From the NCBI RefSeq assembly GCF_007625155.1, contig NZ_VMNK01000015.1:434001-498000 (forward strand): a DNA stretch of 64,000 bases, in the 5' to 3' direction. A model generated the notes under the pieces. The model did no database searches. It worked only from the letters and a program-made list of their open reading frames with translations, and was not told the origin of the DNA. A program made the translations under genes and the position numbers. Positions 16,736-44,146 of this stretch are shown here, one piece after another. The stretch comes from Denitromonas halophila. GTDB taxonomy: Bacteria > Pseudomonadota > Gammaproteobacteria > Burkholderiales > Rhodocyclaceae. The number at the start of each line of letters is the position of its first letter. Positions within the stretch are counted from its first letter, which is position 1.

Positions 16736-18078
16736 GGGGTGACGGCGATGAGTTCGAGTTTGAGGTCTTGGTAGCTTTCCGGGGCGTAGATCATGATGGA
16801 CTGCGCATTGAGCATGCGTTCGTACAGCGCGCCCTTGGTGTCGAGCGCAAAATAGCTTGCACCGGGTCGAACCGGGATTGCTGCCGGGACTTGCGCCGCG
16901 TGGCTGATCCGCACGCCGGACATGGCCGACAGCACGAGTTTTTCGACATCGTCCGGGGCGCCCACTTTCAGACGCAAGGGGACCGATTCGATAAGCTCTG
17001 ACTGAGGGTGAGCCGCGCTGACAGAGAGATAGAACGTGGTGTCGCTGGCGATTTTTTCCGAATCGAGACGCCCAGCGTGGAAGGCGGCTTTGGGTTGAGT
17101 AAGTGCAATGGAAAAGTATCGAGTCGAAATGACCGTATCGAGCAGGTCGCGCAGGATTTTGTCGAGTTGAGTGAAGCACGCGCCGGGGGCGCCATGTTCG
17201 TAAGCGGGCAGATCGTCGAGCGCATGATGCTTCGAGAAGGTCATCAATCCGCCGGCCAAACGAAGCAGTTCCTGAAACAGTCGTTCCGGGTGGATGTCTG
17301 GGTTGCGGAACAGATGTGTCAGCGCCGCACAAGCGCTGCTGGCGGTATGAAGCAGCCAGAACGATGCAATGTCGCCGGAGCGGAATTCAATAATGTTCTG
17401 CGAGGGTTCGCGATGAAAACCATAGAGCGCATCGACTTTTGCGCGAAGCGCGTCGATTTGACGGCGGAGCATGAGGTAGAGCAGCGGGGCACTGCGCAGA
17501 CTGGTGGCCGGGGGCAAAAATGCAGGATCGCGTTCGAACCCGTCACTGCTGGTCCGCCGTATGCGAAGTAGCGGAAGCGTCGCGTATTGGTCTCGTGGCT
17601 CGCTGGCGGCTTTAAGATAGGCCAGCTTGCTGAGGTAGGTGATTTGCGCATCGGCTGCGTCAGTAAAGAGGTCGGCCGTGTCTTTGGGTTCGATAAGAAA
17701 TCGCGCATGGCTGTCGTCGCGACAGCCCTCGACGCAGTTTCCTCCGTGATTCTTGAGCTGATGAATCGCCAGGTGGAATGTGATGCCGCCCTGGTCGGAG
17801 ACGAGCGCGTCCAAGGCAACGGGTGGCGGAAGCTGGTCAATGTCCGGGGCCGTAAATGATGTCCCGTCGGACATCACGACATCAATGCGATTGAAGCGCA
17901 GCGTGCCGGTTTTGAGCGCTTCGATATCCAGTGCAAGGTCTTTGACGCCCCACGCGAAGGGCTGGGCGGTCATGAGTGCATGACGGCTCAACGCCTCGGC
18001 ATACGCATCCTGTTGCTGGAAGTGTTGTGGCCGAAGAAAAAGCCCTTCGCCCCACAGTATCTTTGCACTCTGCATCAC
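16732..18078 (-). CDS. tssK: T6SS baseplate adaptor TssK
   Basis: Connects the baseplate wedges (TssF/TssG/TssE) to the TssJLM membrane complex. The 448-residue protein opens with the TssK signature ILWGEGLFLRPQHFQQQD, and the C-terminal part (YFALDTKGALYERMLNAQ, MIYAPESYQDLKLELIAV) is the membrane-complex-binding end. Length is normal. It lies ten bases after tssJ and overlaps tssL by four bases. Confidence 0.96.
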   Translation of the reverse strand: MMQSAKILWGEGLFLRPQHFQQQDAYAEALSRHALMTAQPFAWGVKDLALDIEALKTGTLRFNRIDVVMSDGTSFTAPDIDQLPPPVALDALVSDQGGITFHLAIHQLKNHGGNCVEGCRDDSHARFLIEPKDTADLFTDAADAQITYLSKLAYLKAASEPRDQYATLPLLRIRRTSSDGFERDPAFLPPATSLRSAPLLYLMLRRQIDALRAKVDALYGFHREPSQNIIEFRSGDIASFWLLHTASSACAALTHLFRNPDIHPERLFQELLRLAGGLMTFSKHHALDDLPAYEHGAPGACFTQLDKILRDLLDTVISTRYFSIALTQPKAAFHAGRLDSEKIASDTTFYLSVSAAHPQSELIESVPLRLKVGAPDDVEKLVLSAMSGVRISHAAQVPAAIPVRPGASYFALDTKGALYERMLNAQSIMIYAPESYQDLKLELIAVTP

Positions 18079-18088
18079 TATCCCTTGG

Positions 18089-18700
18089 CTACCCGTCGCA
18101 GCTCACGCCCGACAGTGTTCTTGATTGATCGGCCGATTGGGCGCCCGACACCACCCCGCGGCCTGCCGTCAGTGCGCAGGCATGTGCGCCGACCGTGATA
18201 CCTGTTTCTTGTGACGCGACCGCGTCGAACGTGAGTTTCCAGCGGCGCTGGGCCGGCGATCGGAAAAGGCCGACGACGCCGATGGTTGTGCTGTCGGCAG
18301 TCAGCTTTTGGGTGAGGTCATAGTTTTTTCCCGGTATGAGCACGACGTCCTCTACCGCGACCAGATCCTCGCCCAGCACTGCTTTTCCCGCATCGTCGCC
18401 GCTTGCTGCGGGGTAAGGGAGTTCGTTGAATGCGCGGCCATTTCGTAGTTGATAGACCCGCACGACCAGCGACAAGGACTGCCCTGAGGGGGTGGTGTTG
18501 AGTTCGTTTCCGGCGGAGATTCGCATTGGCACCTCAACGGCCTTTTGCTCCTTGTTGCCGGCATCCGTCTTGATGCCGGAAAGCTGCATCGCGATGTTGA
18601 CGGCAGTGCCTACCGCTTGCACGGCGCCTGTTGTGGCGCACCCGGTATTTGTCGCCACTGTCGCGACAAGCAATGCGAGAAGCCTTTTCTGAAGCGTCAT
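18089..18700 (-). CDS. tssJ: T6SS outer-membrane lipoprotein TssJ
   Basis: Anchors the T6SS membrane complex in the outer membrane. The 203-residue product has a lipoprotein signal with a TNTGC-type lipobox (Cys21) and the TssJ beta-sandwich, recognisable by SLSLVVRVYQLRNGRAFNEL, LVAVEDVVLIPGKNY and GVVGLFRSP. It has about 30 extra residues between the lipid anchor and the sandwich. First gene of the leftward operon, divergent from the TPR lipoprotein gene. Confidence 0.94.
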   Translation of the reverse strand: MTLQKRLLALLVATVATNTGCATTGAVQAVGTAVNIAMQLSGIKTDAGNKEQKAVEVPMRISAGNELNTTPSGQSLSLVVRVYQLRNGRAFNELPYPAASGDDAGKAVLGEDLVAVEDVVLIPGKNYDLTQKLTADSTTIGVVGLFRSPAQRRWKLTFDAVASQETGITVGAHACALTAGRGVVSGAQSADQSRTLSGVSCDG

Positions 18701-35063: not shown

Positions 35064-36563
35064 TTACTCCGGGCGCATCTGCGGAAACAGGATCACGTCA
35101 CGAATGGCCGGGCTGTCGGTCAGCAGCATGACCAGACGGTCGATACCGATGCCGCAGCCGCCAGTGGGCGGCAGGCCGAATTCGAGCGCCCGGATGTAGT
35201 CGGCGTCGTAGTACATGGCTTCGTCGTCGCCGGCTTCTTTGGCTTCGGCCTGCGCGCGGAAGCGGGCCGCCTGGTCTTCCGGGTCGTTCAGCTCGGAGAA
35301 GCCGTTGGCAATTTCGCGGCCGACGATGAACAGCTCGAAGCGTTCCGTGACTTCCGGGTCGCTGTCGGAGGCGCGGGCCAGCGGGCTGACTTCGACCGGG
35401 TAGTCGATGATGTAGGTCGGCTCCCACAGCTCGGCTTCGGCGCAGGCTTCAAACAGCTGCAACTGCAGGCTGCCCAGACCGCCCGGTTTGACGCTCTCGC
35501 CGAAGGCATTGATCTTGGCCTTGAGCCATTCGGCGTCGGCCAGTTGCTCGACAGTGAAGCCCGGGTGGTATTTGCGGATGGCTTCGACGATGGTCAGGCG
35601 GTGGAAGGGCTTGGACAGGTCGAGCTCGCGGCCCTGATACTGGAAGACCTCGGTGCCCAGCGCTTCGCGCGCAGCGTGTCGGATGAGGCCTTCGGTGAAG
35701 TTCATCAGGCTTTGGTAGTTCGCGTAGGCCTCGTAGAACTCCATCATGGTGAATTCGGGGTTGTGACGCGGGCTGAGGCCTTCGTTGCGGAAGTTGCGAT
35801 TGACCTCGAACACCTTCTCGAAACCGCCGACCACCAAGCGCTTGAGATAGAGCTCGGGGGCGATGCGCAGGAACAACTCCATGTCGAGCGCGTTGTGGTG
35901 GGTGGTGAAGGGCTTGGCCGAGGCGCCGCCGGGAATGGGGTGCATCATCGGCGTTTCGACCTCGAGGAAGCCGTGATTCATCATGTAGTTGCGGATCGAC
36001 TGCACCATGCGGCTGCGTGCCACGAAGGTGAAGCGCGACTGCTCGTTCATGATCAGGTCGAGATAGCGCTGGCGGTATTTGGTTTCCTGGTCGGTCAGGC
36101 CGTGGAATTTTTCGGGCAGCGGGCGCAGGTTTTTGGACAGCAGGCGGATTTCGGCGCAATTGACGGTCAGCTCGCCAGTCTTGGTCTTGAACAGGGTGCC
36201 GACCGCGCCAACGATGTCACCGATATCCCAGTGCTTGAAATCGGCATGCACGTCTTCGCCGACGCCCTGATTGCTCACATACAGCTGAATACGACCGGAG
36301 AGATCCTGAATGGTGGCGAAGCTGGCTTTGCCCATGACGCGCTTGAGCATGATGCGGCCGGCCACGCGCACTTCGATCGGGGTCTGTTCGAGTTCTTCGC
36401 GGGTCTTTTCGCTGTATGTCTCGTCGAGTTTGCCGGCGGTGTTCTCGCGTGAGAAGTCGTTCGGGTAGGCGCGGCCGGATTCGCGCCACGTGCGCAGCTT
36501 TTCGCGGCGCTCGGCGATGAGGTGGTTTTCGTCGGCGGAAGGCGAGGCGTTTTGTTCTGACAT
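35064..36563 (-). CDS. lysS: Lysyl-tRNA synthetase, class II
   Basis: Charges tRNA-Lys. 499 residues, with an N-terminal OB-fold anticodon-binding domain ([19 protein letters not shown]) and the class II core: motif 1 around [20 protein letters not shown], motif 2 [20 protein letters not shown], motif 3 [16 protein letters not shown]. It is the first gene of a leftward operon with the hypothetical gene and mnmC. Confidence 0.97.
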
Positions 36564-36755
36564 GTGTGGCTCGTTTGAATGATGGCGAGTCCGGCGTTGC
36601 GTTGTTGCTATACGCGGGTGCCGAAAAACCGCAATTTTCTCATAACCGCCGCGAGAAGTCGCTCGCCAAGGGGCGTTCGTGCCCGGCGCCGGCGCATAAA
36701 CCGTTTAATGATGGCGATTCGGTGCCGTAATACGAAAGACCTGTGGAAGACACGC

Positions 36756-37814
36756 ATGCGAACACGGACTGGCGACTCTCTTCTGGCCTTGCTCAAGGCC
36801 GCGCAACATCTGACCTCACTGCATGTGAGAGAGACGCTGTTGCGCGCGTTCTGTGTTGGCGTCCAGCGCGCGCTGCGCGCAGAGCGTTGTGAGCTGCGGG
36901 TGCTAGGGCTGGGGCGTCGGCAGCTCAAAAGCATCGGCTGGTGCAACAAAGCGGGCGTTGGCGGCGATTGGGACGACGCTGCCGACGGCCTGGACGGTCA
37001 GGTGCAAGAGGGGTTTCTGGCGCAGGCGATCGACAATGGCGCGAATCTCACCCGAGCTCACGATTCGGATGGCTGGCGGATGGCGTTTCCGGTGTTGCAC
37101 GCTGGTCGCGTCCGATGGATTCTCGATGTCCATGCCACCACGGCGATTGCCGCCGTCACCGTCGATGGCGTTCGGGCCTATGTTCATTGTTTTGAGCGCT
37201 TGATGGCGCACTGGGATTACGCCAATCTGGATACCTTGACCGGCTTGCTCAACCGCAAGACCTTCGATGAACAGTTTGACCAGTTGATTGCGGTCGCCGA
37301 GCGGGCACGGCGCCAGGACGGGGAGCGACGCGAAGATTCGGTGCTGCCCAGCCCAGCGTGGCTGGGGATTGTCGACATCGACCACTTCAAGCACATCAAC
37401 GATACCTGGGGCCATCTGTTCGGCGACGAAGTCCTCATCCGCTTGGCTGATTGTATGCGCAGCGCGTTTCGCAGCTCCGACAAGCTGTTCCGTTTCGGTG
37501 GCGAGGAGTTCGTGGTGATGTTGCGCAATGTGCCGGCCGAGACCGTGACCAGTATTTTCGAGCGTTTCCGGATCGCGGTCGAAACGCATGATTTTCCGCA
37601 AGTCGGGACCGTCACCTGTTCGATCGGATTCGCCCAGGTTGATGACCGGCTGCCTCCCGCAGAACTGCTCGGTCGTGCCGATTCAGCGCTCTACTATGGC
37701 AAAGAGCATGGCCGGAACTGCGTCTGGGCCTACGAAGACCTGGTGGCAGCCGGCGAGCTGGTCTGCACCACAGCGACCAGTAGCGCGCAGCAAGACGCTG
37801 ACGAATACTTCTGA
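36756..37814 (+). CDS. Diguanylate cyclase (GGDEF domain)
   Basis: Makes cyclic di-GMP from two GTP. 352 residues from the ATG at 36756, chosen for the GGAAG ribosome site ten bases upstream; the frame extends further but through non-homologous sequence. The N-terminal half (about 10-150) looks like a GAF-type sensor, and the C-terminal half is a GGDEF domain with FRFGGEEFVVML (active GGEEF) and the inhibitory I-site RSSD five residues before it. No membrane helix, so a soluble sensor. Convergent with the SMC operon, with 18 bases between. Confidence 0.93.
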   Translation: MRTRTGDSLLALLKAAQHLTSLHVRETLLRAFCVGVQRALRAERCELRVLGLGRRQLKSIGWCNKAGVGGDWDDAADGLDGQVQEGFLAQAIDNGANLTRAHDSDGWRMAFPVLHAGRVRWILDVHATTAIAAVTVDGVRAYVHCFERLMAHWDYANLDTLTGLLNRKTFDEQFDQLIAVAERARRQDGERREDSVLPSPAWLGIVDIDHFKHINDTWGHLFGDEVLIRLADCMRSAFRSSDKLFRFGGEEFVVMLRNVPAETVTSIFERFRIAVETHDFPQVGTVTCSIGFAQVDDRLPPAELLGRADSALYYGKEHGRNCVWAYEDLVAAGELVCTTATSSAQQDADEYF

Positions 37815-37832
37815 CCGGGCGGCGTCCGGCGG

Positions 37833-40625
37833 TCAGTCTCGCTGGCGCTGCAACACCCCGATCGGCGGTGCCCATTCTTCTGACGGCGGCTTCTTGCGCG
37901 TGACCAGCGTGAGCTGCGCCGGCGCAAATACATTGGCATTGTGCGTCACCGGCGTGGTGATCAGATATTGCGCGCGGGTCGCCCGCAGGAAGGCGCCGAC
38001 GCGGTCGATGTTGGCCACATCCAGATGCGCGAAGGGCTCGTCGATGAAGACGAAGCCGCCCGGGCGGGTCTCGTCCATCAAGAGCGCAATCAGCAAAATC
38101 AACGACTTCATCACCTGCTGGCCGCCCGAGGCTTCGCCATCGTTCAGGCCGACCGCGCCCTTGCGGTCGAAGTCAAAGCGCACATCTAGGCCGGAGCGGT
38201 GCAGGGCGGTGTCATCGTTGTCCAGATGCGGTACCGGGCAGTCCACCTCGACATGCGCCAGTTCGCCCAGGGCTTTGAGGTTGCGGCTGTACTGGCGCAC
38301 CGTGGCGCGCAGCTTGCCAATGTAGGCGCTGCGCGCTTCGTCGGTGTGGCGGCGTGCCGTGGCGCAGTAGCCCTGGCGGGCGGCGTAGTCGCGCTCGCGG
38401 CGGCCAAGGTCGTCAAGCAGACGGTCGCGCAGGGTGAGCACGGCGGGGTCTTGCACCCAGTCGCCTTGTTCAAGCCGCAGACGCAGGCGCTCGGATTCGG
38501 CACGCGCGCTGCGGGCATCGCCGTAGCGCTCGGTGAGTGCTTCGATGCCTTCGCCACGGCGCCATTCGGCGGGCATGCCGCGACGCAGCCGGCGCAGACG
38601 CTGCACGCGTTGGGCTTGTGATTGGCGACGTGGGCGGTCCTCGCTGTCGAGCAGGCCCAGACGTTGCTCGTGGGTGGCCAGTTCGCGGCGGCGGCGGTCG
38701 AGTTCGATCTGGATGCCGTTGAGCCGCTCGCCTATGCCGTCGAGCGTGGCCTGCAATTCGGTGCGCTCGGCGATGGCGTCGGTCAGCGCTTTTTTTGCCA
38801 CCGGCAGGTCGGCCTCGGCCTCGGCAAAGGCTTGCGCGCGGGCGGCCAGTTGGGGTGCGGCGCTCAGGCCGAGTAGCTGACTGCGTAGGGTGTTGAGCCG
38901 GTCGCGCAGTGCGTCCATCTGCGGGCGCAGCGGGCTGAGCGCCTTGTCGAGCTCGCGCACATCGGCCGAGAGCGCATCGATGCGCGCCTGCCGTGCCAGC
39001 TCGCCAAAGTGGAATTCGCGCGGGCGGCCCAGGTGGCGGGCGCCGCGGCGCTCGCGGTGGTAGGCGTCGCGGGTGATCCACTCGGTATCGCGCGACAGGG
39101 CGCTGCCGGCGGCGGCGTCTTCGACGCGGGTGATGCGGTTCAGCAGGTCGGCCAGCCAGCGCGGCACGGGGCCGGCAAAGCGGACGACTTCGGCCAGCGT
39201 ATCGCGCTGGGCCGGCGGGGCGTTTTCGCAGTCGGCCACGACGAAATGGCGGAAGCGCTCGCGCTCACCCAGCGCCCAGGCCTGATGACGATCGGCGGCG
39301 CGCTCGAGCAGCAACACGTGGCGATAGGGGCGCAGTACGGCTTCGATCGCGCCTTGCCAGGCGGCGTCGGTGATTTCGATGGATTCGCTGAGCGCGCTGT
39401 GTGCGATGCCGGCCTCGGTCAGTACGGCGCGGAAGGCGCGCACCTCGGGGTCGGAGGGCGGGCTGCTGCGCTCGTGGGCATGGGCGAGCGCGTCCTTGGC
39501 GGTTTCGAAACGGGCGACCAGCTCGCGTTCTTGTGCGCGCAGGGCCGTCAGCTCGGCTTCGACCGACTCGTGTTCGGCTTCGATGGCGACGGCGTCCTGA
39601 CCCTCTTCGCGGGCCAGTAGCTCGCGCAGGGCGCTGCGCTCGGCCAACACACGTTCGAGATCGCGTACGCGGTCGTGGGCGCTCAGATGGCGTTGTTCGG
39701 TGTCCAGAAACTGGCTGCGGGCTTTGGCGCGGGCCTTTTCTTCGGCCAGACGCTCGGCGTCGACCTGGGCGATGCGCTGGCGGGCGGCCAGCAGGCCGGA
39801 CTGGCGCTCGCGGCGCTCGCCATCCTGGGCGCGCAACTGGCTGCGTTCGGCACGGATGTCGCGGCGCAGCTCAAAGGCTTCGAGGCGCGGAATGATCTCG
39901 GCGTCGAGCGCCGAGCGTTCGTCGGTAATCTGCTTCCATTCCAGATAGCGGTCGGCTTCGAGGCGCTTGGCTTCAGCCTGGGCACGCAGGCGGTCGAGGT
40001 CGATCGACAGGCTGTCGAGCTCGCGCTCGGCGTTTTGCTGCTCTTCGCGCGCAACGTCGTAGTTGTCGAGCACTTCCTTGTCGCCAAAGACATCGAAGAC
40101 CAGTTCGAGCAGGGCTTTGGGCGCGTATTCGCACAGCTTGTCGGTGTCGCCTTGTTCCAGCGCGAGCACTTTGGCGATGGCCGGGGTCAGGCCACCGGCG
40201 GCGAGGCGGCTTTGATAGTCGCGCAGGCCGATCCAGTCGTTGCTGGTGTCGAGCGCTTCAATTTCGATGTCGCCATCGACGATGGTGTAGTCGCGCGTCC
40301 ATTCACCGCCCGCGCGGCGGATGCGGCAGGCCAGAGTGACCACGTCGTCGAGACAGGGGAAGAACGGCCGTCGGCCGGTGGCACCGGGCAGGTTGGCGAC
40401 GGTGGCGCGAATCCAGGCGTGACTGCGGTTGGCGCGGCGCACATAGCGGCGGAAGTCGCGCTTGCCCGAGCAGCGCAGCGCAAACAGCGTGCGCAGGGCG
40501 TCGAGCAAGGTGGTCTTGCCTGAGCCGTTGGGGCCGACGATGGTGATGATCTGGGCGTCCAGCGGCAGCGTGAAGCGGCGCCAGAAGTCCCAGTGGACCA
40601 GTTCGATCTGTTTGATATGGAACAT
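37833..40625 (-). CDS. MukB/MksB/JetC-like SMC ATPase
   Basis: 930-residue SMC-type ATPase. Walker [15 protein letters not shown] is at 31-44. Two long charged coiled-coil arms surround a central non-coiled block (about 400-545; DAAWQGAIEAVLRPYRHVLL), which resembles the middle of MukB-class proteins rather than a canonical SMC hinge. At the C-terminus come the signature LNDGEASGGQQVMKS (about 828-840) and Walker B FVFIDEPFAHLD (about 858-868). It is the last gene after mksF- and mksE-like genes and a small secreted protein, the order F-E-B of MksBEF and of JetABC. No JetD gene follows; the next gene is convergent. Role in chromosome organisation or in defence against circular plasmids is inferred. 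Confidence 0.85.
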   Translation of the reverse strand: MFHIKQIELVHWDFWRRFTLPLDAQIITIVGPNGSGKTTLLDALRTLFALRCSGKRDFRRYVRRANRSHAWIRATVANLPGATGRRPFFPCLDDVVTLACRIRRAGGEWTRDYTIVDGDIEIEALDTSNDWIGLRDYQSRLAAGGLTPAIAKVLALEQGDTDKLCEYAPKALLELVFDVFGDKEVLDNYDVAREEQQNAERELDSLSIDLDRLRAQAEAKRLEADRYLEWKQITDERSALDAEIIPRLEAFELRRDIRAERSQLRAQDGERRERQSGLLAARQRIAQVDAERLAEEKARAKARSQFLDTEQRHLSAHDRVRDLERVLAERSALRELLAREEGQDAVAIEAEHESVEAELTALRAQERELVARFETAKDALAHAHERSSPPSDPEVRAFRAVLTEAGIAHSALSESIEITDAAWQGAIEAVLRPYRHVLLLERAADRHQAWALGERERFRHFVVADCENAPPAQRDTLAEVVRFAGPVPRWLADLLNRITRVEDAAAGSALSRDTEWITRDAYHRERRGARHLGRPREFHFGELARQARIDALSADVRELDKALSPLRPQMDALRDRLNTLRSQLLGLSAAPQLAARAQAFAEAEADLPVAKKALTDAIAERTELQATLDGIGERLNGIQIELDRRRRELATHEQRLGLLDSEDRPRRQSQAQRVQRLRRLRRGMPAEWRRGEGIEALTERYGDARSARAESERLRLRLEQGDWVQDPAVLTLRDRLLDDLGRRERDYAARQGYCATARRHTDEARSAYIGKLRATVRQYSRNLKALGELAHVEVDCPVPHLDNDDTALHRSGLDVRFDFDRKGAVGLNDGEASGGQQVMKSLILLIALLMDETRPGGFVFIDEPFAHLDVANIDRVGAFLRATRAQYLITTPVTHNANVFAPAQLTLVTRKKPPSEEWAPPIGVLQRQRD

Positions 40626-40640
40626 CGTTTTCGGCGTTGA

Positions 40641-40931
40641 TCAGCGCAGGCTGCGGCCACAGCCGCCGTCGCGCATGCGTTGTTGGTAGCGCTGCTTGCT
40701 GTCGGTCAGGCGCTGGATGCGGCTGCGGTTGCCTTCGCGAGCGATGCTGGCGTTGAGCTTGGCGATGGCACTTTGATAGCGTGCGCAATTGCGGTCGCTT
40801 TGCACGGGTTGTGGACGATAGCTGCCGCTGCTGCTGTCATCGCCGCCGGCACGCGCGCTGCTCAGGGCGTGTGCTTGCGCTGAGGCGAGAACAACAAACA
40901 GTACGAAAAAGCTTTGGAAATAGCGTGTCAT
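40641..40931 (-). CDS. Small secreted protein embedded in the SMC operon
   Basis: 96 residues with a clear Sec signal peptide (hydrophobic FFVLFVVLASAQAHA, cleavage near residue 22), a Ser/Gly/Pro-rich linker, then a short helical part bounded by two cysteines (NCARYQSAIAKLNAS to DGGCGRSLR), which could form a disulfide in the periplasm. Its ATG overlaps the stop of the mksE-like gene (TGATG) and it ends 15 bases before the SMC gene, so it is translated from the same mRNA. Why a periplasmic protein sits inside a DNA-organising operon is unexplained. Not a recognised family. Confidence 0.75.
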   Translation of the reverse strand: MTRYFQSFFVLFVVLASAQAHALSSARAGGDDSSSGSYRPQPVQSDRNCARYQSAIAKLNASIAREGNRSRIQRLTDSKQRYQQRMRDGGCGRSLR

Positions 40932-41659
40932 CAGAATATCTCGGAGCCGGGTTCAGGCATGTCGCCGTCGAATTCGTCTTCATCGTCGGCGCCGGCCAGG
41001 GCAAAGGCGTCGGCGGCGGGCGGCGGGTGGCCGGCGTCGGAGAGCACGCCGGCGAGGGTGCCGTGAATGATGCGGTCGGCCATCAGGCGGTAGTCGAGGG
41101 CGACGTCGAGCAGCGGGCCTTCAAGCAGCATGCCGCTGCGGCGCTCGATGAAGCCGAGGCGGGCGAGGCGGCCGAGCATGAAGTTGCGCACCTTGGTCTT
41201 GCCGCCCAGGCGCGGGCCGAAGTCGGCAATCAGCGAGGCTTCGGACACGCCGGCCGAGACCTCGGCGCCATGGGCGACAGGTTGCTCGGCGGCGAAGAGT
41301 TCTTCCTGACCTTCGTTGGCGAGGTTCTGGCGGGTCACCTGGCGTTCGCGCTTGGGCAGGATGATCAGTGCCCACAGCACCACCAGCAGCGCGATCTCGT
41401 CGCGGGTAAGCCCCATGTTGCTGGCCTGGTATTCGCGGCCGCTGCCGAAGGTGGGCTCGAGCGCGTCGGGGGTCAGGCCGACGGCCACATGGGCGGCGTA
41501 GGGGTTGTCGAGCAGGCGCAGGCCAACGCTGGCCAGTCGCTGGTCGATCTCGTGGCGGAAGGTTTCGTCGATGAGCGCGCGGCGCACCATCGGGTCTTTG
41601 CGTGGCAGCCAGCGCTGGGCAATGAGGCGCGCGGTGAGGGCGCGGATGTCGTGTTCCAT
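40931..41659 (-). CDS. MukE/MksE/JetB-like kite subunit
   Basis: 242-residue soluble protein. The N-terminus (TARLIAQRWLPRKDPMVRRALIDE) and two winged-helix-like parts (LTRDEIALLVVLWALIILPK and TKVRNFMLGRLARLGFIERR, then LEGPLLDVALDYRLM) fit the MukE/MksE pattern of a tandem winged-helix dimer that binds the kleisin. The C-terminal 35 residues are acidic and probably unstructured. Assignment rests on this fold pattern, size and position between the kleisin- and ATPase-like genes. Confidence 0.72.
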   Translation of the reverse strand: MEHDIRALTARLIAQRWLPRKDPMVRRALIDETFRHEIDQRLASVGLRLLDNPYAAHVAVGLTPDALEPTFGSGREYQASNMGLTRDEIALLVVLWALIILPKRERQVTRQNLANEGQEELFAAEQPVAHGAEVSAGVSEASLIADFGPRLGGKTKVRNFMLGRLARLGFIERRSGMLLEGPLLDVALDYRLMADRIIHGTLAGVLSDAGHPPPAADAFALAGADDEDEFDGDMPEPGSEIF

Positions 41660-41666
41660 GAGCGCG

Positions 41667-42944
41667 TCAGTCCGTGGTTTGGGGTCTCAGGCGGCGGATG
41701 CTGCCGGCGCTGATGCGAGCGATTTCGTGGTGGCCGACGTCGACCAGTGTGGCGTCGAACTCGACCTTGAGGGGCAGGCGCATGAAGGCGCCGATGGGGC
41801 CGTCGGCAGGGGCGCTGTCCTGACTGTCGGCCAGCAGGGCGAGCAGCGACAGGCGATAGGCCGCATGGCCGAAGCCGCCACCGGCGACCGCGTCGTGCAA
41901 GGTGGCGGGCTCGGTGTCGATAGCGTCGAGCCGGTCGGCAAAATGGGTGAGCAGGCGCAGGTCTTCTTCTTCGGGCGCGAGCGCGGTGGGGGCCGTGTCG
42001 GCGGCAGGCAGGGTGGTGTCGTCGGCTTCGCCACGCAGCAGATCGCACAGGGCGGTTTCGGCACGGTCGAGCAATTCGTGGCCGCCGGCGAGCAGCGGCA
42101 TGTGCGGGGTGTCGGTGATGGCATCGAAGGCTAGCGCAGCCAGTGCATCCATGCTTTGCTGCCCGAGCCAGGCGGTGACATCGCTGGACGAAATGCCGGA
42201 GCTGCCGAGCGTGACGCGCTGGGTCTCGATCTTGTTGAGTGCGCGCTGGAAGGCGGCATCGACCCGCGCCAGACGGGATTGCGCCAGGCCGATGCGCTGG
42301 GCGATGCGGGCGACGTCAAAGGGCGCGTCGGCGTCTGAGAGCAGTGAGCGCAGGATGTCGGTGCCGCGATCGAGCCATTTGCCGTTGGCCGACAGCCGTC
42401 GGCGTGACTCGACGATGCGGAATTCCGAGCCCGAGGCGATGGCCTCTTCAAAGTGCAGGGTGAGGTCGTTGAGCTTGGACAGCAGATGGCCGAGCGCCTC
42501 GGCGTTGATGCTGTCGGTGGCTTGCAGGCCGGCGAGCTGGGCGGTGAGGAAGCCGAGTTCGGCGTCTTCGGACTCGCCAAAGCGCAGCAGCATGCCGAGT
42601 GCGGCCACGGCATTGCGGCCGGCGTCGGACAGGTGGTAAAGCCCGTCGTCGGCGTAGCTGATCAGGCCCGATTCGCGCAGGCGCTTGAGCGTGGTTTCGA
42701 GCTTGACCGGGTCGAGGTAGGCGAAGCGACGGCGCAGTGCGTCGGGTGACCAGCGCGGGTGATCGACATCATGGCCGACTTCGCGCAAGACAAGCAGGCG
42801 CAGCAAGACCTCCGCCTCACTGCCGCGAAACAGGGAGATGAAGGTGTCGATGACCGGCTGCGCCGCGGCGAGTGCCGAGAGTTCTGGCACATCGTCAACG
42901 GCGTAGCCTGGCGCGAGATAGTCTGCGAGGTCCTGATCGGTCAT
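41667..42944 (-). CDS. MukF/MksF/JetA-like kleisin subunit
   Basis: 425-residue helical protein, first gene of the SMC operon. An N-terminal winged helix (about 35-115; VLLRLLVLREVGHD, LKRLRESGLISYADDGLYHL) is followed by a long all-helical middle and a small C-terminal beta-rich domain (LKVEFDATLVDVGHHEIARI), as expected for a MukF-type kleisin that bridges two ATPase heads. Sequence identity to known kleisins cannot be judged here; the call depends on architecture and operon order. It starts 30 bases after the prfB end region on the opposite side of transcription flow (prfB lies upstream on the same strand). Confidence 0.72.
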   Translation of the reverse strand: MTDQDLADYLAPGYAVDDVPELSALAAAQPVIDTFISLFRGSEAEVLLRLLVLREVGHDVDHPRWSPDALRRRFAYLDPVKLETTLKRLRESGLISYADDGLYHLSDAGRNAVAALGMLLRFGESEDAELGFLTAQLAGLQATDSINAEALGHLLSKLNDLTLHFEEAIASGSEFRIVESRRRLSANGKWLDRGTDILRSLLSDADAPFDVARIAQRIGLAQSRLARVDAAFQRALNKIETQRVTLGSSGISSSDVTAWLGQQSMDALAALAFDAITDTPHMPLLAGGHELLDRAETALCDLLRGEADDTTLPAADTAPTALAPEEEDLRLLTHFADRLDAIDTEPATLHDAVAGGGFGHAAYRLSLLALLADSQDSAPADGPIGAFMRLPLKVEFDATLVDVGHHEIARISAGSIRRLRPQTTD

Positions 42945-42974: not shown

Positions 42975-44079
42975 TTAAACGGCTTGCTTGAGGCTGGCCT
43001 CGATGAAGTCGTCCAGATCGCCGTCGAGCACGGCCTGGGTGTTGCCGACTTCGTAGTTGGTACGCAGATCCTTGATACGTGACTGGTCGAGCACGTAAGA
43101 GCGAATCTGGTGGCCCCAGCCGATGTCGCTCTTGGCGTCTTCGAGCGCCTGCGCCTCGCTCTGGCGCTTGCGCAGCTCCAGCTCGTAGAGCTTGGCCTTG
43201 AGCATCTTCCAGGCTTCGTCCTTGTTGCGGTGCTGCGAGCGGTCGTTCTGGCACTGCACGACAATGCCGGTCGGGTTGTGCGTCAGACGCACGGCCGAGT
43301 CGGTCTTGTTGATGTGCTGACCGCCCGCACCCGAGGCGCGGTAAGTGTCGGTACGCACATCGGCCGGGTTGATGTCGATCTCGATGGAATCGTCGATTTC
43401 CGGGTAGATCGACACCGAACAAAAGCTGGTGTGGCGGCGTGCGTTGGAGTCGAAGGGCGACTTGCGTACCAAGCGGTGAATGCCGTTTTCGGTGCGCAAA
43501 AAACCGAAGGCATACTCGCCCGTGACCTTGATGGTCGCGCTCTTGATGCCGGCCACTTCGCCGTCGGATTCTTCGAGCAGTTCGGTGGTGAAGCCCTTGC
43601 GCTCGCAATAGCGCAGATACATGCGTTCGAGCATGCCGGCCCAGTCCTGGGCTTCGGTGCCGCCGGCGCCGGCCTGGATATCGATGAAGCAGGCGTTCTC
43701 GTCCATGGGGCCGGAGAACATGCGACGGAATTCGAGGCCGCCCACGATCTCTTCGAGCGCCTTGGCGTCGGTCTCGATGGCTTCGAGCGTGTCATCGTCG
43801 CCTTCGGACTCGGCCATCTCGAACAGATCGATCAGGTCGCCCGACTGCTGGGCGACGTGTTGCAGCGTCACCACCACGCCTTCGAGCAGCTTCTTTTCCT
43901 TGCCCAGGGCCTGACCGCGCGCAGCGTCGTTCCAGACGGCGGGGTCTTCGAGGGCGATGTTAACTTCTTCTAGTTTTGAGGCTTTTTCATCGTAGTCAAA
44001 GATACCTCCGAAGTTCTTCCCCGCGGCGCTTCAAGTCCGCAAGGGCTTCGGCGATGTCGTTGATGCGTTCTGCGTCCAT
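42975..44079 (-). CDS. prfB: Peptide chain release factor 2 (programmed +1 frameshift)
   Basis: Terminates translation at UGA and UAA. The gene is read in two frames: 27 codons from the ATG at 44079 to a CTT, then a +1 shift past an in-frame TGA (43998-43996) into the 340-codon main frame, for 367 residues in total (E. coli 365). The SPF stop-codon recognition motif is in [15 protein letters not shown], and the catalytic GGQ is in [16 protein letters not shown]. The shift gives autoregulation: low RF2 favours frameshifting. It lies downstream of pstS and upstream of the SMC operon on the same strand. Confidence 0.97.
43996..44010 (-). promoter_or_regulatory. prfB programmed frameshift site
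   Basis: On the minus strand the sequence reads CGG AGG TAT CTT TGA C. The Shine-Dalgarno-like GGAGG three bases before the slippery CTT, followed by TGA-C, matches the known RF2 frameshift signal. Confidence 0.95.
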
Positions 44080-44146
44080 GGTCGGGGGCTCCGGCTGTTC
44101 AATGCAAACCGCGCATTATACAGGCAGCGCTCCCGCGATCGGCAGC

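Follow-up and report, generated by a model that had tools for sequence, protein, structure and literature searches.

The window studied here, a stretch of 64,000 nucleotides from Denitromonas halophila (contig NZ_VMNK01000015.1, positions 434,001 to 498,000), contains an operon for a structural maintenance of chromosomes (SMC) complex of the Wadjet/MksBEF kind, in which three genes stand in the order kleisin-kite-ATPase. The Wadjet nuclease JetD was found neither beside this operon nor, by three profiles, anywhere else in the genome. A sequence-only reading of the locus had described a complete SMC ATPase in this gene order, with prfB and a diguanylate cyclase gene as flanks and no JetD gene adjoining. 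These points held: all three frames are open on the minus strand, Walker A, signature and Walker B are intact, prfB lies 30 nt upstream of the kleisin-like gene and the GGDEF gene 18 nt downstream of the SMC gene, with lysS beyond it. A 96-aa open reading frame (ORF) between the kite-like and the SMC gene had been overlooked.

Features of the operon and its surroundings, in positions of the window
Feature	Position	Strand	Remarks
Kleisin-like subunit (JetA/MksF position), 425 aa	41667..42944	-	Open frame; first in the F-E-B order conserved among relatives
Kite-like subunit (JetB/MksE position), 242 aa	40931..41659	-	Open frame; weak DUF4194/JetB1 matches
SMC ATPase (JetC/MksB position), 930 aa	37833..40625	-	SMC_N, PADLOC JetC1; all ATPase motifs intact
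96-aa ORF, signal-peptide-like start	40641..40931	-	Between kite and SMC; lineage-specific insert
Empty "JetD slot", 18 nt	37815..37832	.	SMC stop to convergent GGDEF gene; JetD gene of ~1.2 kb here in some relatives
prfB (release factor 2, RF2)	42975..43877	-	Pfam PCRF/RF-1; conserved gene upstream of the operon
GGDEF (diguanylate cyclase-like) gene	36579..37814	+	Pfam GGDEF, E=3e-36; convergent with the operon
lysS	35064..36563	-	NCBIfam lysS_bact above cut-off; conserved 3' flank of the slot

The motifs of the SMC protein read GPNGSGKTT (Walker A), SGGQQ (signature) and FVFIDEPF (Walker B), and the three patterns were kept in 85 of the 86 SMC sequences later used for the tree, the exception being locus L137 with GANGSGKTT. 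Matches were obtained to SMC_N (E=3e-16) and to PADLOC JetC1 (E=4e-25, best stretch 187-699). In hhalign comparisons the hinge region, and only this region, aligned with six JetC proteins (three of them checked as JetC1) at a probability of 99% and E=8.5e-18, and the protein aligned with E. coli MukB (1486 aa) at the C-terminal head alone. The SMC ORFs of the relatives measure 929-941 aa, apart from L032 (1001 aa) and L054 (cut by a contig end), thus the short subunits are a trait of the family and no truncation.

The two upstream proteins were named from gene order, size, weak matches and the company they keep, because their profile matches were weak or absent. The 425-aa protein gave a weak match to a winged-helix regulator at residues 47-114 (E=0.061), and one of the 18 members of its family matched JetA1 (E=0.01). 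Members of the kite-like family matched DUF4194 weakly (5/18, best E=0.016) and one JetB1 model (2/18, best E=0.0035). In relatives the F-E-B order with the kleisin-like gene first is conserved. We infer, for the 425-aa protein mainly from gene order and size, that the 425-aa and 242-aa proteins are the kleisin and the kite. Nuclease-bearing Wadjet-like operons also exist whose first two subunits are barely recognised by PADLOC-DB 2.0.0. The comparison with Muk and Jet profiles suggested by the sequence-only reading thus gave a divided answer, with a JetC1 match for the SMC protein, weak or absent matches to JetA and JetB, and none to MukE or MukF.

These comparisons bear on whether the operon is a plain orthologue of the E. 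coli MukBEF or the Pseudomonas MksBEF condensin, which we regard as very improbable. The gene order is alike, and according to PMC7485682 and PMC10586767 MksBEF of P. aeruginosa works on the chromosome alongside SMC. However, hhalign against E. coli MukF and MukE gave probabilities below 1% for kleisin and kite, and MukB was reached by its C-terminal head alone; MukBEF orthology was rejected on these grounds. A search with the SMC profile of 119 presumed Pseudomonadaceae genomes (7 candidates per genome, no positive control, PAO1 not included) returned one match, a 1240-aa frame in a JetC1/JetA1 locus. The 119 genomes were taken as Pseudomonadaceae because one member, G441, carries the PrrF RNA. 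The MksBEF-type condensin among the options of the sequence-only reading is therefore unsupported in the sense of orthology to Pseudomonas MksBEF.

In the host genome (4.39 Mb, 34 contigs) there were no matches to PF11795 at E 0.001 (control positive in 1/14 genomes), to PF09983 at E 10 (control positive in 2/14 genomes) or to the family's own JetD profile at E 0.01, for which all 22 candidates were scored. The two Pfam models stand for JetD_C and DUF3322. Since no JetD was found genome-wide by these profiles, an outsourced nuclease in the host, one of the options raised before, is not supported and was rejected. An alternative effector within the operon was also rejected, as the extra ORFs found between kite and SMC, or in the interval from prfB to kleisin, vary from lineage to lineage; this was judged by clustering and by eye, with no family search of these ORFs.

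Relatives of the operon do carry a nuclease gene. In 10 of the 16 named loci of the distant group, whose SMC proteins are 45-48% identical, and also in the RA8 record from Variovorax, a protein of ~405 aa is encoded right after the SMC gene, from a 25 nt overlap to a 75 nt gap; L073-L076, L078 and L080 are without it. All nine aligned members match PADLOC JetD1 (best E=2.3e-22), and in Pfam at E up to 1 the same nine gave DUF2399 in five, the Top6A/Spo11 Toprim domain in five and JetD_C in four. The patterns ENxxxF, DxDPxG and KxEQE, which we take to be tied to Toprim catalysis, were kept in 26 of the 27 sequences checked. All three are absent from the Crenobacter homologue (L067:11810-13015), which has an open frame; this protein may be catalytically dead and perhaps retained as a structural part. 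Downstream of the JetD-bearing operon in L063, L069, L071 and L133 stands a gene resembling the large subunit of exonuclease VII (ExoVII), which in L133 carries DUF5710 at its N-terminus and precedes a gene for the ExoVII small subunit. It is possibly an accessory nuclease of the JetD-bearing form.

In some close relatives JetD occupies the place that is empty in the window. In L029, L032, L034 and L045 it stands between the SMC gene and GGDEF-lysS, and in 20 loci without JetD GGDEF and lysS follow on the 3' side, with 16-583 nt from the SMC gene to the GGDEF match. In L042 (Methyloversatilis thermotolerans) an open JetD gene (17304-18530) sits 5.5 kb from the SMC gene, so that the earlier idea of an unlinked jetD found a counterpart in one relative and none in the host. 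Over the 96 SMC-bearing genomes of the host's family, the JetD profile found 17 open copies, 3 damaged copies and none in 76 genomes, with the marginal G013 (E=0.005) counted among the latter. The damaged copies comprise one with an in-frame stop (G108, the named locus L026), one without its middle (G214) and a short 3' remnant (G243). None of the nine SMC-bearing genomes of the host genus yielded the family's JetD. In genera g6, g37, g49, g50 and g58, genomes with and without it coexist. JetD next to the orthologues, which the sequence-only reading had set against its own proposal, was thus seen beside a minority and was absent from most. Because some close relatives carry JetD in exactly the missing place, the operon looks like a repeatedly disarmed defence system.

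The direction of change was examined on trees. For 21 taxa (L026, L028, L068 and L134 left out of the JetD tree) the JetD and SMC trees had 11 of 18 splits in common, with a mean of 0.19 and a maximum of 2 in 500 shuffles, and the Rhodocyclales JetDs formed one group with moderate support (85/94). The SMC tree held 86 sequences, none below 900 aa: 24 with JetD, 1 with a broken copy, 54 without, and 7 of unknown state (less than 1.6 kb of DNA 3' of SMC), which entered none of the state counts. Counted as present were L026 (in-frame stop), L028 and L068 (cut by the contig end), L042 (5.5 kb away) and L067 (motifs changed). JetD changed state at least 14 times on this tree, or 11 times with branches under 95 collapsed, compared with a mean of 21.6 and a minimum of 15 in 300 label shuffles. 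Inside Rhodocyclales at least 9 changes were counted (7 with branches collapsed). If JetD was ancestral and never regained, this clade (11 with and 46 without JetD) would have undergone 18 losses, or 15 after collapse. The 64-row Rhodocyclales clade includes metagenome-assembled genomes with other titles, such as L049, titled Moraxellaceae.

Because the two trees largely agree, repeated loss of JetD is the best reading of this pattern. Most losses, if losses they were, would have been clean, since the JetD-less named loci held no convincing relics below E 0.5. The opposite course, in which a condensin of three genes came first and acquired JetD repeatedly at the 3' end of SMC, appears improbable to us. 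Change counts are symmetrical, with at least 14 in either direction, and one supported conflict between the trees would suit a gain. However, the trees agree in the main, the Rhodocyclales JetDs form one group and the gene occupies the same slot. Footprints of loss may also be seen in the motif-changed copy and in the three damaged ones, which show an in-frame stop, an internal deletion and a 3' remnant.

The operon has its closest relatives in L001-L004, among which one bears the title Denitromonas iodatirespirans; Thauera, Azoarcus, Aromatoleum, Zoogloea and others come next. The SMC gene was found in 96 of 297 sampled genomes of the host's family. In 17 genera, chosen because the close form occurs in them, it was present in 91 of 100 genomes (hand count), including 9/10 in the host genus. 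Elsewhere in the family it was seen in g19 (2/12 genomes, both also with JetD), g24 (1/2) and g25 (2/2), as copies 46-47% identical. The g25 loci L135 and L136 have a JetD-less, prfB-linked operon, ~46% identical, yet group in the tree with JetD-bearing distant loci. A kite profile run at E 1e-5 over 370 genomes spread thinly across the class found the host and G615 alone; this sample is no census, because it missed the Chromobacteriaceae-like relatives. Among 72,556 plasmids SMC relatives occurred in just two, both megaplasmids of Variovorax (L132, L133), with genes truncated beside IS1071. The copy on the Variovorax RA8 megaplasmid retains JetD and the ExoVII genes. ScpA was found in 95 of the 96 SMC-bearing genomes, the host included, therefore Smc-ScpAB is probably present in the host (ScpA alone was searched).

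Of the conserved lysS-prfB position, which the sequence-only reading had proposed to look for, the prfB side is typical of the near relatives: a prfB gene of the same orientation stands no more than 3.2 kb upstream in 55 of 64 close loci, against 0 of 16 distant ones, where upstream flanks are in part short. As for the nine remaining close loci, kleisin and kite are both missing within 9 kb in L044; the others have no kleisin match or too little upstream DNA. At least 15 loci have a ~415-aa gene between prfB and the kleisin gene. In L005, L006, L010, L011, L012, L018, L052 and L061 kite and SMC are set apart by other genes (0.7 to ~6 kb), so the SMC gene need not adjoin those of its partners.

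This distribution bears on whether the JetD-less complex still defends the cell, loading on small circular DNA and silencing or excluding it by extrusion, or passing it to an unlinked host nuclease. We consider this unlikely. The nuclease-bearing relatives do resemble defence systems, being sporadic in g19 and present on the Variovorax megaplasmid, and an ordinary JetD_C occurs elsewhere in 18 of the 96 SMC-bearing genomes, in the host genus in G238 and, weakly, in G060, far from the SMC operon. The JetD-poor form, however, is near-fixed and linked to prfB, and most defence systems are not near-fixed in their distribution; no JetD of either kind was found in the host genome. The ordinary JetD_C showed no association with the operon (18/96 SMC-bearing against 36/201 other family genomes). 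By hand comparison it lay more than 80 kb from SMC in the 7/18 that share one contig, and on different contigs in 11/18.

Selection on the operon was assessed from the ratio of nonsynonymous to synonymous substitution rates (dN/dS). Against L001, L002 and L004 the ratio was 0.02-0.12 for the kleisin, kite and SMC genes, 0.02-0.07 for prfB and lysS, and 0.13-0.25 for the GGDEF neighbour (dS partly saturated), which gave 0.24 against L003. Elsewhere the three genes showed 0.04-0.23 in five JetD-less pairs and 0.02-0.27 in five JetD-bearing pairs; as these ranges are similar, the complex is kept about equally strictly whether or not the nuclease is present. That the operon is a relic drifting since the loss of its effector would suit the missing JetD and the unrelated genes between kite and SMC in several relatives. 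It is hardly credible and already contradicted, as dN/dS is about as low as for prfB and lysS and the ATPase motifs are retained in all 54 JetD-less SMC sequences scored.

As to the neighbouring sequences, homologues of the 96-aa ORF were found in just L002, L004 and L081-L085 among 110 loci, which are the nearest relatives of the window (L081 being its own locus). By eye, a 108-aa ORF in the same place in L001 resembles it. The ORF is probably not part of the complex. The GGDEF neighbour is not part of it. Its gene is convergent with the operon in the window and in L001-L004 and co-directional with SMC in most scored loci (L029-L062), and its sequence is very variable among loci (43% in L002). 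The N-terminal part of prfB lies in a different frame with a terminal stop codon (42975-44120); a programmed frameshift of RF2 would place this part in a separate frame. Promoter and terminator scans returned nothing exceeding shuffled sequence.

Taking these results together, we think it rather likely that the operon is a disarmed Wadjet retained as an accessory, MksBEF-like condensin with a role on the chromosome. The three genes would encode a full set of kleisin, kite and SMC subunits, belonging to a divergent branch within the Wadjet/MksBEF superfamily. In the ancestor of the operon, the SMC gene would have been followed immediately on its 3' side by a gene for a Toprim nuclease of the JetD type. 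This nuclease would have been lost in the lineage of the host genus, as in many other Rhodocyclales; the ATPase complex is kept in the core genome under strong purifying selection. The remaining complex would most likely bind DNA and extrude loops in an ATP-dependent manner without cutting, acting beside Smc-ScpAB, probably in chromosome housekeeping. Of the earlier options, a Wadjet that lost its nuclease is thus favoured in combination with a distinct subgroup.

Several results weigh against this reading. Kleisin and kite of the window reach no curated cut-off in the profile libraries and PADLOC sees neither, although in ordinary Wadjet loci the same library picks out JetA1 and JetB1 at E <=1e-90 (and JetC1 strongly too); hhalign joins neither kleisin to JetA nor kite to JetB. 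The absence of JetD is no peculiarity of Rhodocyclales, since 6 of the 16 distant loci are also without it, and some absences may be misses, because just 23 candidates were scored in many genomes (all in the host genome). The operon is not generally essential, as 201 of the 297 family genomes have no SMC match. Parsimony change counts do not distinguish gain from loss, and the Thauera JetDs group with Pseudothauera at 98/98 while L010/L061 cluster with L015 in the SMC tree at 100, a conflict that implies some lateral exchange. Against the more distant L003 dN/dS was higher (kleisin, kite and SMC 0.19-0.32, prfB 0.19, lysS 0.12), and the JetD-less pair L008/L018 gave 0.20-0.23.

A wider and more tentative proposal, which we put at a little short of evens, is that the Rhodocyclales present a natural series: a single plasmid-cutting SMC defence system would have lost its nuclease activity in at least 7 and perhaps 15 or more independent events, through clean deletion, a nonsense mutation or an internal deletion (in Crenobacter, which is not of this order, through the catalytic-motif change), and the motor would each time have been kept and turned into a housekeeping condensin. 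If so, the transition from Wadjet to condensin would be a recurrent evolutionary route with several stages caught. The family makes it testable whether loss of the nuclease frees the SMC machine for the chromosome, and what a non-cutting, extruding Wadjet core does.

Compared with known systems, the operon agrees with type I Wadjet (JetABCD/MksBEFG/EptABCD) in the kleisin-kite-SMC order, in a hinge similar to JetC1 and in the JetD1-matching protein that follows SMC in relatives. It differs in the missing JetD, in that JetA and JetB are not recognised, and in size: as already remarked from the sequence, the subunits are shorter than typical JetC and JetA, with ~930 aa against 1133-1230-aa ORFs for SMC and 425 against 486-503 aa for the kleisin-like protein (six ordinary loci, three identity-checked). 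We did not file the operon as Wadjet, because the defining feature, JetD, was not found. With MukBEF of E. coli it has the F-E-B operon order and the SMC head motifs in common, but the kleisin and kite profiles are unmatched and MukB is much longer; MukBEF apparently took over from Smc-ScpAB, according to PMC10586767. With MksBEF of P. aeruginosa it shares coexistence with Smc-ScpAB, here seen as ScpA. In the same source it was proposed that this MksBEF may derive from Wadjet defence by loss of JetD. The family of the window differs from it in having relatives with and without the nuclease side by side within genera, and would add a second, divergent lineage besides P. aeruginosa, in which JetD varies among species of one genus and the flanks of the slot are preserved. 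The literature search found nothing on Wadjet in Rhodocyclales or on MksB in Xanthomonas. In its working the complex would come nearest to an MksBEF without a nuclease, and it probably descends from Wadjet.

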